From: Parvimonas micra | Lineage (GTDB): Bacteria; Bacillota; Clostridia; Tissierellales; Peptoniphilaceae | Direction of reading: 5' to 3' | Assembly (NCBI RefSeq): GCF_021300775.1 | Contig: NZ_JAJTJP010000001.1 | Coordinates: 186,001 to 250,000, forward strand | DNA length: 64,000 nt | Shown: positions 25,210 through 31,009 of the stretch, piece after piece | Layout: each line of letters begins with the position of its first letter | Position numbering within the stretch: position 1 is the stretch's first letter | Position numbers and translations under genes: made by a program | Notes under the pieces: generated by a model | Told to the model about the DNA's origin: nothing | What the model saw: only the letters and a program-made list of their open reading frames with translations | The model's database searches: none

Positions 25210-26184
25210 GTGAGTAATTCAAAAAAATTAACAAAAAAAGAACTTTTGGAAATGTATGATAAAATGTTACTTATAAGACATTTTGATATGGAACTTAGTA
25301 AATTATATTCAAGAGGATTTATCCACGGAATGACACATTATTCTGTAGGAGAAGAAGCAGCCAATGTTGGTGCAATATACCCAATGAGAAAAGAAGATTT
25401 AATGTATTCAAATCATAGAGGACATGGTCAAACAATTGCAAAAGGTATAGATATAAATAAAATGATGGCCGAAATCTTAGGGAAAGCAACTGGACAATGT
25501 AAAGGTCGTGGAGGTAGTATGCACCTTTACAACTTAGAAGTAAACAATATGGGATGTAATGGTATTGTTGGTGGTGGACACGGTTTAAGTACAGGTGCAG
25601 CTCTTGCTCAAAAAATGAAGAAAACAGGAAATGTTGTAGTTTGTTGTATGGGAGAAAGTGCAACAAATGAAGGAAGTTTTCATGAATGTTTAAATATGGC
25701 GTCAATTTGGAAATTACCATTAGTATTTTATGTAATTAATAATAATTATGGTATTTCAATGTCTCAACAAAGATCAATGACTGTTGATAAAGTTGTTGAA
25801 AGAGCAGATGCTTACAAAATTAAATCAATCTATGTTGAAGATGGAAATAATGTATTAGATGTATACGATGCAATGAGTGAGGCAATTGAATATGCCAGAG
25901 AAGGTAATGGACCTGTTTTAGTAGAAGCTAAAAGTTATAGATGGTTTGGGCACTCTGCTTCAGATGCTGGAAAATATAGAGATAAAGCTGAAGTTGATGC
26001 ATGGAAAGAAAAAGATCCAAATGTTGCATTTAAAAAATATTTAATTGAAAATAAAGTTGCGACTGAAAAAGAACTTGATGATATGGAAGAAAGTGTAAAG
26101 AAAGTAATCGCTGATGCAATAACTTTTGCTAAGGAATCACCTTTAGCAGATGAAAAAGATGCTTGCACAGACAATTATGCTTAA
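25210..26184 (+). CDS. Thiamine-dependent dehydrogenase E1 component, alpha subunit (acetoin/2-oxoacid type)
   Basis: First half of the TPP-dependent E1 enzyme of an acetoin or 2-oxoacid dehydrogenase complex. It starts at GTG 25210, preceded by TGGAGG. Features are the RGHGQTIAKG and GRGGSMHL segments typical of AcoA/PdhA. The TPP-binding segment reads MGESATNEGSFHECLNMA...VINNNY: the usual GDG of the GDG-x-NN motif is GES here. Length is 324 residues. It is the first of four tightly spaced genes. The absence of a separate pyruvate-specific hallmark and the E1 types favour acetoin dehydrogenase-like chemistry, but substrate is not proven. Confidence 0.9.
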   Translation: MSNSKKLTKKELLEMYDKMLLIRHFDMELSKLYSRGFIHGMTHYSVGEEAANVGAIYPMRKEDLMYSNHRGHGQTIAKGIDINKMMAEILGKATGQCKGRGGSMHLYNLEVNNMGCNGIVGGGHGLSTGAALAQKMKKTGNVVVCCMGESATNEGSFHECLNMASIWKLPLVFYVINNNYGISMSQQRSMTVDKVVERADAYKIKSIYVEDGNNVLDVYDAMSEAIEYAREGNGPVLVEAKSYRWFGHSASDAGKYRDKAEVDAWKEKDPNVAFKKYLIENKVATEKELDDMEESVKKVIADAITFAKESPLADEKDACTDNYA

Positions 26185-26206: not shown

Positions 26207-27196
26207 ATGGCTAGTGAAATAAAGATTATGACTTTGCGTGAAGCAATAAAGGAAGCAATGTCCGAAGAAATGCGTAGAGATGAAAATGTATTTTTAATGG
26301 GAGAAGATGTTGGTATTTTCGGAGGAGATTTCGGAACTACTGTCGGAATGCTTGAAGAATTTGGAGAAGAAAGAGTTAGAGATTGTCCTATAAGTGAAGC
26401 TGCTATAGCAGGAGCTGCTGCAGGAGCTGCATCAGTAGGAATGCGTCCTATTGTTGATTTAACTTTTATGGATTTTGTTACAATAGCAATGGATGCTATA
26501 GTAAATGAAGCTGCTCCAATGAGATATATGTTAGGTGGAGAAGTTAGTGTACCTGTTGTTTATCGTTGTGCATCAGGTTCAGGTACAGGAGCTGCAGCTC
26601 AACACTGTAAAGCTCTTGAAGCATGGTTCTGCCATATTCCTGGACTAAAAGTAGTTGCACCTGGAACAGTAAATGACGCTTATGGAATTTTAAAAGCTTC
26701 TGTAAGAGATAATAACCCAGTTGTTTTCATCGAATCTAAAGCTCTTTTTGGTAGAAAGGGAGAAGTTAAGATTGGAGAAATAGTTGAAATCGGAAAAGGT
26801 GAAGTTAAAGTTGAAGGAAAAGATGTAACTTTAGTTTCTTGGGGAAGAATGTTAGAAAGAGCTTTACAAGCTGCTGAAGAATTAAAAGCTGAAGGAATTA
26901 GTGTAGAAGTTGTTGATCCAATAACATTAGTACCTTTAGATGAAGAATTAATTGTTGAATCTGTTAAGAAAACGGGAAGACTTGTTCTTTGTCATGATTC
27001 ATTTAAAACAGGTGGATTTGGTGGAGAAATTGCAGCAAGAATTGCTGAAAGTGATGCTTTTGATTATTTAGATGCACCAATCTACAGAGTGGCAGGAGCT
27101 GATACAAATATACCTTCTGCTAAAAACTTAGAAGCGGTAATCGTACCAAGTGTTGAAGATATTAAAAATACTTTAAGAAAAGCAGTTAATAGATAG
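26207..27196 (+). CDS. Dehydrogenase E1 component, beta subunit
   Basis: Partner of the upstream alpha subunit. The 329-residue product follows the E1-beta pattern: TLREAIKEAMSEEM, MGEDVGIFGGDFGTT, CPISEAAIAGAAAGAASVGMRPIVD, then AAAQHCKALEAWFCHIPGLKVVAPGT and the C-terminal transketolase domain (SWGRMLERALQAAEEL). AGGAG lies before the ATG, 22 bases after the alpha-subunit stop. The alpha/beta pair together would decarboxylate or cleave the substrate and pass the acyl unit to a lipoyl domain. Confidence 0.93.
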   Translation: MASEIKIMTLREAIKEAMSEEMRRDENVFLMGEDVGIFGGDFGTTVGMLEEFGEERVRDCPISEAAIAGAAAGAASVGMRPIVDLTFMDFVTIAMDAIVNEAAPMRYMLGGEVSVPVVYRCASGSGTGAAAQHCKALEAWFCHIPGLKVVAPGTVNDAYGILKASVRDNNPVVFIESKALFGRKGEVKIGEIVEIGKGEVKVEGKDVTLVSWGRMLERALQAAEELKAEGISVEVVDPITLVPLDEELIVESVKKTGRLVLCHDSFKTGGFGGEIAARIAESDAFDYLDAPIYRVAGADTNIPSAKNLEAVIVPSVEDIKNTLRKAVNR

Positions 27197-27205
27197 GAGG
27201 AAATT

Positions 27206-28243
27206 ATGTCTGATATAAAATTTAGAGCAACACCAGTTGCAAGATTTTTATCTAAGCAAAATAATATCGACTTATCATTGCTAAAAGGAACAGGTCCAAA
27301 GGGAAGAATTCAAAAAGAAGATGTTCTAAACTTTAAAAATTTTGGAATAATAAAAGTTTCATCTCTTGCAAAGAAGATTGCGGAAGTTGAAGGTGTTGAT
27401 TTGACTAATGTAACTGGAACAGGAGTTAACGGAAAAATACTAAAAGATGATATTTTAGAATTCTTAGCAAATAAAGATGTAATTTCTACAGAAAATGCGG
27501 TTGAAGAACAAGTTGTTGAAACTCAAGAAATTAAAAAATCATATGGTGAAGTTGAAGAAGTTCCAATGTCAATGATGAGAAGAACTGTTGCTAAGAGAAT
27601 GAGTGAAAGCTATTTTACAGCACCTGTTTTTGTAGCGAATATTGAAGTTGATATGACTGAAGTTAAAAACTTAAGAGCAAATATTATGCAACAACTTATT
27701 GATGAAACAGGATACAAACTTACAATTACAGATATAATTTCATTAGCAACAGTTAAGAGTTTGGTAAAACATCCATATGTAAATTGTAGCTTATCCGCTG
27801 ATGGAACAAAGATTTTACTTCATAAGTATGTAAATCTTGCTATGGCTGTTGGCCTTGAAAATGGACTTTTAACACCGGTTGTTAAAAATGCTGAAAAAAT
27901 GAGTTTAAGAGAACTTATGATTTCATTAAAAGACTTAACTAAGAAAGCTGTTGAAATGAAATTAGAGTCAGAAGAATTAGAAGATAGTACATTTACTATC
28001 AGTAACTTAGGTATGTTTGGTATAGATTCTTTTGCTCCAATTATAAATCAACCTAATAGTGCTATATTAGGTGTTAGTGCGACTGTTGATAAACCAGTTG
28101 TAGTAAATGGAGAAATAACTGTAAGACCTATTATGAAATTATCAATTACAGTAGATCATAGAGTCGTTGATGGAATGGAAGCTGCGAAGTTTTTAAATAC
28201 ATTGAAAAATTATTTAGAAAATCCTATTTCAATTTTAGTTTAG
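27206..28243 (+). CDS. Dehydrogenase E2 acyltransferase without lipoyl domain, with two peripheral-subunit-binding domains
   Basis: The catalytic E2 core is clear: the C-terminal 2-oxoacid dehydrogenase acyltransferase domain with SITVDHRVVDGMEAAKF. What is missing is the N-terminal lipoyl domain found in normal E2 proteins. Instead, residues 6-40 and about 50-90 each form a peripheral-subunit-binding domain (PVARFLSKQNNIDLSLLKGTG and SSLAKKIAEVEGVDLTNVTGTG). The ATG at 27206 has AGGAGG upstream, and there is no room for a lipoyl domain in the nine-base gap after E1-beta. The lipoyl domain sits on the next gene product. Length is 345 residues. Confidence 0.9.
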   Translation: MSDIKFRATPVARFLSKQNNIDLSLLKGTGPKGRIQKEDVLNFKNFGIIKVSSLAKKIAEVEGVDLTNVTGTGVNGKILKDDILEFLANKDVISTENAVEEQVVETQEIKKSYGEVEEVPMSMMRRTVAKRMSESYFTAPVFVANIEVDMTEVKNLRANIMQQLIDETGYKLTITDIISLATVKSLVKHPYVNCSLSADGTKILLHKYVNLAMAVGLENGLLTPVVKNAEKMSLRELMISLKDLTKKAVEMKLESEELEDSTFTISNLGMFGIDSFAPIINQPNSAILGVSATVDKPVVVNGEITVRPIMKLSITVDHRVVDGMEAAKFLNTLKNYLENPISILV

Positions 28244-28258
28244 TGTGAGGAGAAAATT

Positions 28259-29986
28259 ATGTTAACAGAAATAATAATGCCAAAAGCTGGTAGTGAAATG
28301 GAAGAAGGCCAAATTGTAAAATGGCTTAAAAAAGAGGGAGACAAAGTTGAAGCCGGAGAAATAATTTTAGAAATTATGACTGATAAGGTTAATATGGAAA
28401 TTGAAGCCGAAGCTTCAGGAACTTTGCTTAAAATTTTAAAACATGATGGAGAAATTGTTCCAGTTATAACAACTATTGCCTATATTGGAGATGAAGGAGA
28501 TGTTATTCCTGAAACTGCTTCAGCACCTGTTAAAGAAGAAGTTAAAGAAGTTGCTAAGGAAGAAGTTAAAGCACAACCAGAAGAAAAAACAACTGAAGCT
28601 AAAGCAGAAGCAAAAAAAGAATTAAAAGATGGTGAATATGATGTTGTTGTAATCGGCGCAGGTCCTGCTGGATATTATTCAGCTATTAAAGCTGCCCAAA
28701 AAGGAGCAAAAGTTGCAATAGCAGAAAATAACAAATTTGGTGGTACTTGCTTAAATAGAGGATGTATACCAACTAAAACTTATCTACAAAATGTTGAAGA
28801 TATAGAAAGAATTAAAGCGTCAAGCAAGAGAGGAATCATTTTAGAAAATGATAATGCTACTATTGACGTTGCAAAGGCTTTAAAATTCAAAAATTCTATA
28901 GTTAAGAAACTTACTGCAGGAGTAGAATTTTTATTAAAGAGTAATTCAGTTGAAATGTTTAAAGAAACTGCTTATATTAATTCAAATGGAAATGTTACTT
29001 TAGAAAGTGGAAAAGAACTTGTATGTGGTTCAATAATTTTTGCTGGTGGTTCTAAATGCGTTAATAATATTAAAGGATCAGATAATTCAAATGTTATAGA
29101 TACTGATGAAGCATTAGATTTAAAAGAAGCACCGGAATCATTAGTAATAATTGGAGCAAATTATATTGGAGTTGAAATGGCTCAAATATTTAGTTCATTT
29201 GGAAGTAAGGTAACTGTTGTTGAAAGAAAAGAATCAGCAATTGATGTTGTAGATTCAGAAGTTTCTTCAATATTAATTAAATCATTAGAAAAATCAGGAA
29301 TTAAATTTATCTTTGGTAAAGAAATTACTGAAATTTCTGGAGAAAAAGTATTAGCTGGTTCAGAAGAAGTTGCAAGTGCAAAAGTAATTCTAGTTACAAC
29401 TAGAGAAGCTGATTTAACAGCATTAAAAGATGTAAATCTTGAAGTTTCTGATGGAAATGTAGTTGCTAATGAAAAAATGCAATCAAGTTTAAAGAATGTA
29501 TATGTTCCTGGAGATGTTAATGGTAAAAATCTTCTAGCACATGCTGCATTTAAAATGGGATATATTGCTGCTTCAGAAATTGTTGAAGGTAAATCAGATA
29601 AATATAATAATAATATCATACCTAGAGCTATTTATACTTATCCAGAAATTGGTAGTGTAGGTTTAACTGAAGAAGAAGCGAAGAAATCTTATGATGTAAA
29701 AGTTGGAAAATTCAATTATGGAGCGAATGGTAGAGCTTTAGCTCACGGAGATTCATCAGGAATGGTTAAGATTATTTCTGATGCAAGATATGGCGAAATT
29801 TTAGGAGCTCATATTGTTGGACCAAGAGCATCAGAATTAATTAATGAAGTTTCAATTTTAATGCAATCAGAAGTTATTGTTGAAGAAGCTATTAAAATGG
29901 TATTTGGACATCCAACTTTCTCAGAAGCAATTTATGAAGCAATTGCAGATATTGAAGGAGTTAGTGTACATTTACCTAAAAAGTAA
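28259..29986 (+). CDS. Dihydrolipoyl dehydrogenase (E3) with N-terminal lipoyl domain
   Basis: A flavoprotein that re-oxidises the dihydrolipoyl group with NAD+. Residues 1-77 are a biotinyl/lipoyl domain with lipoylation Lys43 in MTDKVNMEI. A Glu/Lys/Ala-rich linker (about 80-120) leads to the E3 body: FAD motif VVVIGAGPAGYYSA, redox disulfide CLNRGC (Cys164, Cys169), NAD motif VIIGANYIGVEMAQ and the C-terminal GHPTFSEAI with the catalytic His. The 575-residue length reflects the added domain. This lipoyl domain is the only one in the operon and so probably serves E1 and E2 as well. A terminator follows. Confidence 0.94.
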   Translation: MLTEIIMPKAGSEMEEGQIVKWLKKEGDKVEAGEIILEIMTDKVNMEIEAEASGTLLKILKHDGEIVPVITTIAYIGDEGDVIPETASAPVKEEVKEVAKEEVKAQPEEKTTEAKAEAKKELKDGEYDVVVIGAGPAGYYSAIKAAQKGAKVAIAENNKFGGTCLNRGCIPTKTYLQNVEDIERIKASSKRGIILENDNATIDVAKALKFKNSIVKKLTAGVEFLLKSNSVEMFKETAYINSNGNVTLESGKELVCGSIIFAGGSKCVNNIKGSDNSNVIDTDEALDLKEAPESLVIIGANYIGVEMAQIFSSFGSKVTVVERKESAIDVVDSEVSSILIKSLEKSGIKFIFGKEITEISGEKVLAGSEEVASAKVILVTTREADLTALKDVNLEVSDGNVVANEKMQSSLKNVYVPGDVNGKNLLAHAAFKMGYIAASEIVEGKSDKYNNNIIPRAIYTYPEIGSVGLTEEEAKKSYDVKVGKFNYGANGRALAHGDSSGMVKIISDARYGEILGAHIVGPRASELINEVSILMQSEVIVEEAIKMVFGHPTFSEAIYEAIADIEGVSVHLPKK

Positions 29987-30082: not shown

Positions 30083-31009
30083 ATGATTTTTATTAAAAAT
30101 AAAATTACAGATGTATATTTTAATTTAGCTTTAGAAGAGTATATCTTTGAAAAATTTAAAGAAGATGAAGTCTTTATGTTATGGATAAATGAACCATCTG
30201 TAGTTATAGGAAAACATCAAAATTTAATTGAAGAATTAAATATGAAATACTGTTTTGAAAATAAAATAAAGATTGCTAGAAGACTCTCCGGTGGTGGAAC
30301 AGTTGTACATGATTTTGGAAATCTTAATTATACTTACATAACGAATACAACTGGAAATACTGCACTTGATTTTAAGGAATTTTTAAAACCTATGTATAAT
30401 GCTCTCTTAAATTTGAATATTGATGTTCATGTTTCTCCGAGAAATGACTTTAGAGTACAGGATAAGAAAATTTGTGGACATTCGGAATTTATGAGAAAGA
30501 AAAGAGTTTTACATCATGGTTGTATTTTGTTTGATAGTAATTTAGATAAACTAAGAAATGCATTGAATGTAAATAATAAAAAAGTTATTTCAAAATCTGC
30601 AAAATCTGTTAAGAGCAGTGTTGCAAATTTAAAAGAAATTTCAAAATTAGATTATGAAATTTCAGATTTTCTAGAAAAATTAAAAAATGAAATTTTACAA
30701 ACTCAAGAGAATTTTGAAATTTACGAATTAACAAAAGAAGATTTTTTAAATGTAGATAAAATAAAATCTGAAAAATATGCCACAAAAGATTGGATATATG
30801 GACAATCTCCTAAATGTACTTTTTTCTTAGATGAAGAAAGAGATTATACTGTTGAAATTGATGGTGGAAAAATAGAAAAAATCAATATGGGAGATGATAA
30901 TAAATTTGACAGTTTAATAGGAATATATTTTGAGTATGAAGAAATAAAGAATAAATTAGATTTATTAGATATAAATGATATTTATTCTAAGATGCTTTGT
31001 GACATATAA
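30083..31009 (+). CDS. lplA: Lipoate-protein ligase A
   Basis: Attaches lipoate to lipoyl domains. The substrate-binding segment reads ARRLSGGGTVVHDFGNLNY and the second motif is KICGHSEFMRKKRVLHHGCILF, with the conserved Lys for lipoyl-AMP. The C-terminal third forms the accessory domain. The 308-residue length fits LplA. Its place right after an operon whose only lipoyl domain is on E3 suggests that this domain is a main client. Start ATG 30083 has GAGGAG upstream. Confidence 0.93.
   Translation: MIFIKNKITDVYFNLALEEYIFEKFKEDEVFMLWINEPSVVIGKHQNLIEELNMKYCFENKIKIARRLSGGGTVVHDFGNLNYTYITNTTGNTALDFKEFLKPMYNALLNLNIDVHVSPRNDFRVQDKKICGHSEFMRKKRVLHHGCILFDSNLDKLRNALNVNNKKVISKSAKSVKSSVANLKEISKLDYEISDFLEKLKNEILQTQENFEIYELTKEDFLNVDKIKSEKYATKDWIYGQSPKCTFFLDEERDYTVEIDGGKIEKINMGDDNKFDSLIGIYFEYEEIKNKLDLLDINDIYSKMLCDI

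Follow-up and report, generated by a model that had tools for sequence, protein, structure and literature searches.

An operon in a 64,000-nucleotide stretch of Parvimonas micra DNA (hereafter the window) very probably encodes a pyruvate dehydrogenase (PDH)-type complex whose swinging arm sits on the dihydrolipoyl dehydrogenase subunit (E3). The acyltransferase subunit (E2) has no lipoyl domain (LD) and begins with two peripheral-subunit-binding domains (PSBDs; Pfam E3_binding), while an LD with a predicted lipoyl lysine is fused to the N-terminus of E3. The genes follow the order E1α-E1β-E2-E3-LplA, all on the (+) strand and in one operon, with E2 and E3 laid out as follows:

27206..28243 (+): E2 acyltransferase, 345 aa, order PSBD-PSBD-catalytic domain (Pfam, locally built profiles, NCBIfam NF011416)
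27218..27334 (+): PSBD1, E2 residues 5-43 (local profile; best Pfam stretch 7-41)
27350..27463 (+): PSBD2, E2 residues 49-86 (local profile; Pfam counts two E3_binding stretches)
27560..28240 (+): E2 catalytic domain, residues 119-345, with DHRVVDG at 317-323 (Pfam and local profile)
28259..29986 (+): E3 dihydrolipoyl dehydrogenase, 575 aa, with N-terminal LD (Pfam Pyr_redox_2 and Pyr_redox_dim; NCBIfam TIGR01350)
28268..28492 (+): LD of E3, residues 4-78, predicted lipoyl lysine Lys43 (local profile; Pfam Biotin_lipoyl, PF00364, over residues 4-76, E=1.7e-19)
28493..28636 (+): linker from the LD to the E3 core, 48 residues, rich in Ala, Glu, Lys and Pro (from the sequence)

Neither Pfam Biotin_lipoyl nor a local LD profile detected an LD in E2, which departs from the canonical order LD-PSBD-catalytic by the absence of the N-terminal LD. 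Pfam and the local profiles thus agree with a first-pass annotation of this DNA, which had described an E2 without an LD but with two tandem PSBDs. The catalytic domain matched PF00198 (2-oxoacid_dh) with E=8.9e-81, and its DHRVVDG fits DHxxxDG, the acyltransferase motif expected of an E2 catalytic domain. The protein fills NF011416 end to end (residues 1-345 on model positions 1-347 of 347), scoring 469 bits against a cut-off of 429.

A sequencing error, frameshift or mis-assembly could hide an N-terminal LD of E2, an outcome that the first-pass annotation had named as a refutation. Such errors occur in general, and nothing specific points to one here; on the other side, the E2 start follows the E1β stop after only 9 bases (12 from the last E1β codon, stop included), so that no frame-shifted LD can precede E2, and a candidate LD upstream was rejected for want of space. 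Moreover, the same layout recurs in three other genomes with E2 76–96% identical, as well as in more distant genomes. We therefore give a hidden LD next to no probability. A search of genome contigs with a single protein as query returned 5 loci; among named relatives, Parvimonas sp. oral taxon 393 comes closest (96% E2 identity), followed by Parvimonas parva (89%).

E3 scored above the NCBIfam TIGR01350 cut-off (444 against 409 bits, residues 126-571), and its active-site motifs CLNRGC (164-169) and HPTFSE (551-556) are intact. Lys43 lies within a DKV motif, of which D42 and K43 are invariant across five aligned E3s, and the 48-residue linker falls in the range of other LD-bearing E3s (29–52 residues). 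In the mechanism that we propose, LplA, encoded by the next gene, or a second LplA encoded elsewhere with LipA, would put lipoate on Lys43; one PSBD would hold E3 dimers on the E2 core and the other would hold E1; and the E3-borne arm would be acylated at E1, pass its acyl group to CoA at E2 and be re-oxidised at E3, with the flexible-looking linker giving the LD its reach.

To what extent E3 holds the only arm was examined in the whole genome (1.476 Mb, 98.7% complete, 5 contigs). PF00364 matched three proteins, namely the LD of E3, a 145-aa biotin carrier (NCBIfam TIGR00531) and GcvH, and there was a single match each to PF01597 (GcvH) and PF00198 (the window E2). A second E2-type lipoyl carrier was accordingly rejected for this genome, which encodes neither the free lipoyl protein nor the second LD-bearing E2 that had been named as refuting finds. 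The LD of E3 is the sole E2-type LD of the genome, in keeping with the earlier statement that the only LD is fused to dihydrolipoyl dehydrogenase, and for this reason the arm must reach E1 and E2 from E3 if the complex works. The gene for GcvH (L169 4737-5108, contig C3) had no glycine-cleavage genes among the five neighbours scanned, the rest of the genome not having been searched for them. The genome also encodes two LplA proteins in total, the second directly 5' of lipoyl synthase LipA (L165 1474-3325, contig C2), and a second, plain dihydrolipoyl dehydrogenase of 469 aa that passes TIGR01350 and adjoins a Tex gene (L168 5278-6687, contig C3).

We then compared 50 complete operons, which were chosen rather than drawn at random and are mostly best matches to the window E2; duplicates, regions with a missing gene and E2s with one or no PSBD (L036, L038, L140, L009) were left out. 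By profile, the LD lies on E2 only in 13 operons (state A), on both E2 and E3 in 23 (state B) and on E3 only in 14 (state C), and no operon lacks it on both. Two PSBDs were detected in every one of the 50 by the local profile, PSBD1 of L142 being weak (26 bits). The first-pass annotation had presented the two PSBDs as standing in place of the LD; because all 36 E2s of states A and B, which bear an LD, also have two, the doubling is not a substitute for it. Among the E2s left out, those of L036, L038, L140 and L009 all bear an LD; the first three have one PSBD, and in L009 the local profile found none.

By sequence, PSBD1 and PSBD2 form two distinct subtypes. PSBD1s share a mean identity of 0.52 with one another and PSBD2s one of 0.47, compared to 0.39 for PSBD1 against PSBD2 and 0.40 when both come from a single protein, and the best split of their tree sets all 50 PSBD1 together with 8 of the 50 PSBD2 against the remaining 42. 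At the 'GR' position, PSBD1 has Arg in 47 of 50 cases, and PSBD2 has Lys in 39 and Arg in 11. Two subtypes fit two different partners, so the earlier suggestion of separate PSBDs for E1 and E3, in either assignment, is plausible.

To follow LD placement, a quick tree was built from joined E1α, E1β, E2-catalytic and E3-core sequences (50 rows, 1317 columns). On it, presence of the E2 LD needs at least 4 changes and presence of the E3 LD at least 3. A single group of all 14 LD-free E2s was rejected (approximately unbiased, AU, test, p=4.8e-36), in a test of a grouping that had been seen on the first tree beforehand, on a quick tree with long branches. The LD-free E2s stand in separate places, comprising a Clostridioides difficile plasmid operon; G015; Parvimonas together with KA00581, G202 and G120; a streptococcus-like LD-free group; and L008, the sister of the streptococcus-like LD-bearing group. 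Because they do not form one group, the LD-free layout probably arose repeatedly. The last three placements may represent one loss followed by regain, and in the streptococcus-like LD-bearing clade loss plus regain and separate losses look alike on the tree; we therefore count no more than the minimum, which suggests that the E2 LD was lost at least three times, on the assumption that E2 originally carried an LD; by itself, the tree does not distinguish gain from loss. For the E3 LD, the tree suggests one loss.

The LD had been described as moved from E2 to E3. It is indeed on E3 and off E2 in the window, but copying onto E3 followed by loss from E2 describes the change better, with both copies present in 23 of the 50 operons. 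As operons with both copies still exist, we propose that the layout would have originated by duplication of the LD onto E3 and later loss of the E2 copy. Four state-C operons (L133, L157, L158 and L161) have a longer gap between E1β and E2, and none of these gaps contained an LD relic (best E 1.8). Two operons stand among operons of another state: L050 2220-4893 (G085, state A), with an E2 LD and a plain E3, branches among state-B operons, and here it seems to be the E3 copy that was lost; and L136 2148-5211 (G1038, state B) is placed among state-A operons with plain E3s, its E3 LD possibly a separate gain.

Within state B, the LDs of E2 and E3 are 0.95–1.00 identical as proteins in 12 of the 23 operons, and those of L045 (3989-7058) share 223 of 225 DNA bases, the highest seen; near-identical pairs also occur in L145 3121-6435, L043, L044 and other both-copy loci. 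Compared as DNA among the 50 operons, the nearest LD to the E2 LD is the E3 LD of the same operon in 11 of 23 cases, and the converse holds in 13 of 23. The near-identical pairs are most simply explained by gene conversion within the operon, which is likely. Such homogenisation is, on these sequences, neither universal nor always recent, since the nearest LD lies elsewhere for 12 of 23 E2 LDs and 10 of 23 E3 LDs, and since the two LDs of L148, identical as proteins, share only 186 of 222 DNA bases. An LD that changes place repeatedly and reversibly, with gene conversion, may not have been described before. We consider it an even call whether the LD is, more generally, a portable part found on E2, E3 or both, copied, gene-converted and repeatedly lost from either end, in a complex that is indifferent to the anchor and whose PSBD subtypes hold E1 and E3 separately.

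The layout is uncommon outside one genus, g284, in the samples that we searched, as drawn from the order and phylum counts. Of the 150 genomes in the order sample, 85 had an E2 match (E<=1e-10), and only G000, G015 and G120 had one of the size of an LD-free, double-PSBD E2 (match from residue <=5, frame 345–351 aa); within the own family, f1, matches were found in G000, G120 and G133, with at least 20 f1 genomes lacking a match among the genomes listed. The phylum sample gave 14 matches in 398 genomes (E<=1e-65), two of them (G000 and G968) of LD-free size. Around an Erysipelotrichaceae metagenome-assembled genome (MAG), both the class sample (2 of 395, E<=1e-60) and the phylum sample (2 of 392, E<=1e-65) returned the MAG and G202. 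E2-like frames of about 234–265 aa that match the catalytic domain only were seen as well (G078:C104:15615-16298, G098:C116:11-694, G033:C52:2383-3045, G002:C15:1456-2130 and similar cases), and are either stand-alone acyltransferases or fragments.

Of the 117 genomes in the family sample around G968, 66 belong to g284, which is probably Streptococcus, because the G968 E2 matches the Streptococcus pneumoniae E2 sequence. In 43 of the 66, the E2 match starts at residue 1 or 2 of a 350–392-aa frame and is thus LD-free by size, with five of the 43 checked by profile; 20 have an E2 frame of 463–529 aa, and 3 have no E2 match. The LD-bearing E3 adjoins E2 in all 43 LD-free genomes, in a frame of 567–581 aa, and each of these genomes has exactly two PF00364 matches, one of biotin-carrier size (128–170 aa) and the other on this E3. 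Among the matches listed for the 20 genomes with a longer E2, 18 include an LD on an E3-sized frame, and G1142 and G1140 carry the LD on both E2 and E3 in their regions (L159, L160). The expectation in the first-pass annotation that E2 normally retains its own LD does not hold throughout this E2 family, for which an LD-free model, NF011416, exists and in which 43 of 66 g284 genomes are LD-free.

Seven further genomes with an LD-free E2 and an LD-bearing E3 were scanned with PF00364. In G150, the Erysipelotrichaceae MAG, and in G202, the LD of E3 was the only match; G151, G152 and G153 had, in addition, one weaker match in a 130–145-aa frame, covering the same model positions as GcvH of the P. 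micra genome; G120 had one additional match under the cut-off; and G015 had additional matches, including one on a second, LD-bearing E2. This last case bears on the alternative that the arm comes from a separate carrier (GcvH, a second E2 or a free lipoyl protein), with the E3 LD as an accessory. GcvH, encoded without recognised glycine-cleavage genes among its scanned neighbours, might serve as a lipoyl relay. However, the P. micra genome has neither a second E2 nor a free E2-type LD, and the 43 LD-free g284 genomes offer only a biotin-carrier-sized match besides the E3 LD, and we regard a separate carrier as unlikely.

Several points weigh against an arm anchored on E3. One of the 14 LD-free cases, G015, has a second complex whose LD-bearing E2 could supply the arm, and GcvH could in principle carry lipoate, glycine-cleavage genes having been searched only near its gene. 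Lipoylation, activity and assembly in Parvimonas are predictions from sequence, and structure models of E2 and E3, computed with five sequences as input, were too weak (mean pLDDT 51 and 47). Gain and loss look the same when judged by changes on the tree alone, and several branches of this quick tree are long (L041, L049, L136, L137, L142 and others). Finally, E1α falls under the PDH equivalog cut-offs, so that either pyruvate or acetoin may be the substrate.

The substrate question turns on the E1 genes upstream, which are listed here with the ligase gene downstream:

25210..26184 (+): E1 alpha subunit of a thiamine-diphosphate 2-oxoacid dehydrogenase, 324 aa (Pfam E1_dh, E=8.4e-80)
26207..27196 (+): E1 beta subunit, 329 aa (Pfam Transket_pyr and Transketolase_C)
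30083..31009 (+): lipoate-protein ligase LplA, 308 aa (Pfam LplA-B_cat; NCBIfam TIGR00545, 304 bits against a cut-off of 280)

The best NCBIfam match of E1α is PDH E1 alpha, at 355 bits and under the cut-off of 394, and related operons are often named acetoin dehydrogenase, both of which count towards acetoin, or another 2-oxoacid, as the substrate. Against this, E1β exceeds the cut-off of NF006667, the PDH E1 beta subfamily (380 against 321 bits), and E2 belongs to a model named dihydrolipoamide acetyltransferase. Because the E1β and E2 models point to PDH, despite E1α being under its cut-off, the substrate is probably pyruvate; acetoin or another 2-oxoacid is possible but less likely, and would be compatible with an arm on E3.

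Loss of the E2 LD could also be one step in the decay of a non-functional complex, in line with the long inner branch (0.43) that carries the Parvimonas and KA00581 operons. Yet reading frames and catalytic motifs are intact, alignments with four relatives show 54–96% identity for E2 and 48–95% for E3, and the layout recurs, which makes decay very improbable.

The textbook place of the swinging arm is E2. A natural complex with its arm on E3 only, which has probably evolved more than once, offers a clean test of how much the anchor point matters for the transfer of intermediates, and the both-copy operons together with the reverse case G085, which has the arm only on E2, provide a natural comparison set. 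If the LD is truly a portable part, it would not matter to the complex whether E2 or E3 anchors the arm, and the PSBD subtypes would give E1 and E3 separate binding sites on the same core.

The layout itself is already known, Parvimonas being another host, as follows from the LD-free model NF011416 and from the E3-borne LDs of pneumococcus and Mycoplasma hyopneumoniae. NF011416 (PRK14843, dihydrolipoamide acetyltransferase, 347 positions) models a full-length E2 without an LD and of matching length; the protein in the window passes it as a more distant member (469 bits), with the E2 of the streptococcus-like L133 much closer (751 bits). The S. pneumoniae E2 is presumably LD-free and is the one matched by G968, and Hakansson and Smith reportedly described in 2007 an LD-bearing E3 of S. 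pneumoniae 'harboring its own substrate'. In G968 (L133), a PSBD-PSBD-catalytic E2, 53% identical to the window E2, and an LD-bearing E3 share one operon. Parvimonas represents another lineage, with LipA, GcvH, a second LplA and a second, plain E3, whereas G968 has no GcvH-like PF00364 match.

In M. hyopneumoniae, PMC7873978 places the LD of PDH on E3 and identifies the lipoylated band as PdhD, whose Lys42 takes lipoate according to mass spectrometry after in vitro ligation, giving a precedent for a lipoylated E3. The same paper enumerates E3-borne LDs in other bacteria, in agreement with the first-pass statement that an E3 with an extra LD exists in several bacteria, and refers to a 2003 paper by Matic et al. 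on 'a novel lipoyl domain arrangement'. The likeness to the window lies in the LD on E3 as the lipoylated subunit; doubled PSBDs are not described in the passages on it.

Closer in architecture, the C. difficile plasmid operon (NZ_CP149721.1) combines a 348-aa LD-free E2 with a 576-aa LD-bearing E3, as in the window. Its E2 is 49% identical to the window E2, is under the NF011416 cut-off (355 against 429 bits), occupies a separate place on the tree and has one E3_binding stretch by Pfam (1e-8 limit) but two by the local profile. The whole E1-E2-E3 operon lies on this plasmid (L041, 23824-33110), its neighbouring genes being annotated as a sugar-binding regulator on one side and a sigma-54-interacting regulator on the other. 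Both-copy operons, such as those of G134, G058 and G1157, are homologous and share the two PSBDs and the LD-bearing E3, but, unlike the window, their E2 keeps its LD. For E3, a solved structure of an LD-bearing E3 (5u25) aligns with residues 3-573 of the window protein, the LD included.

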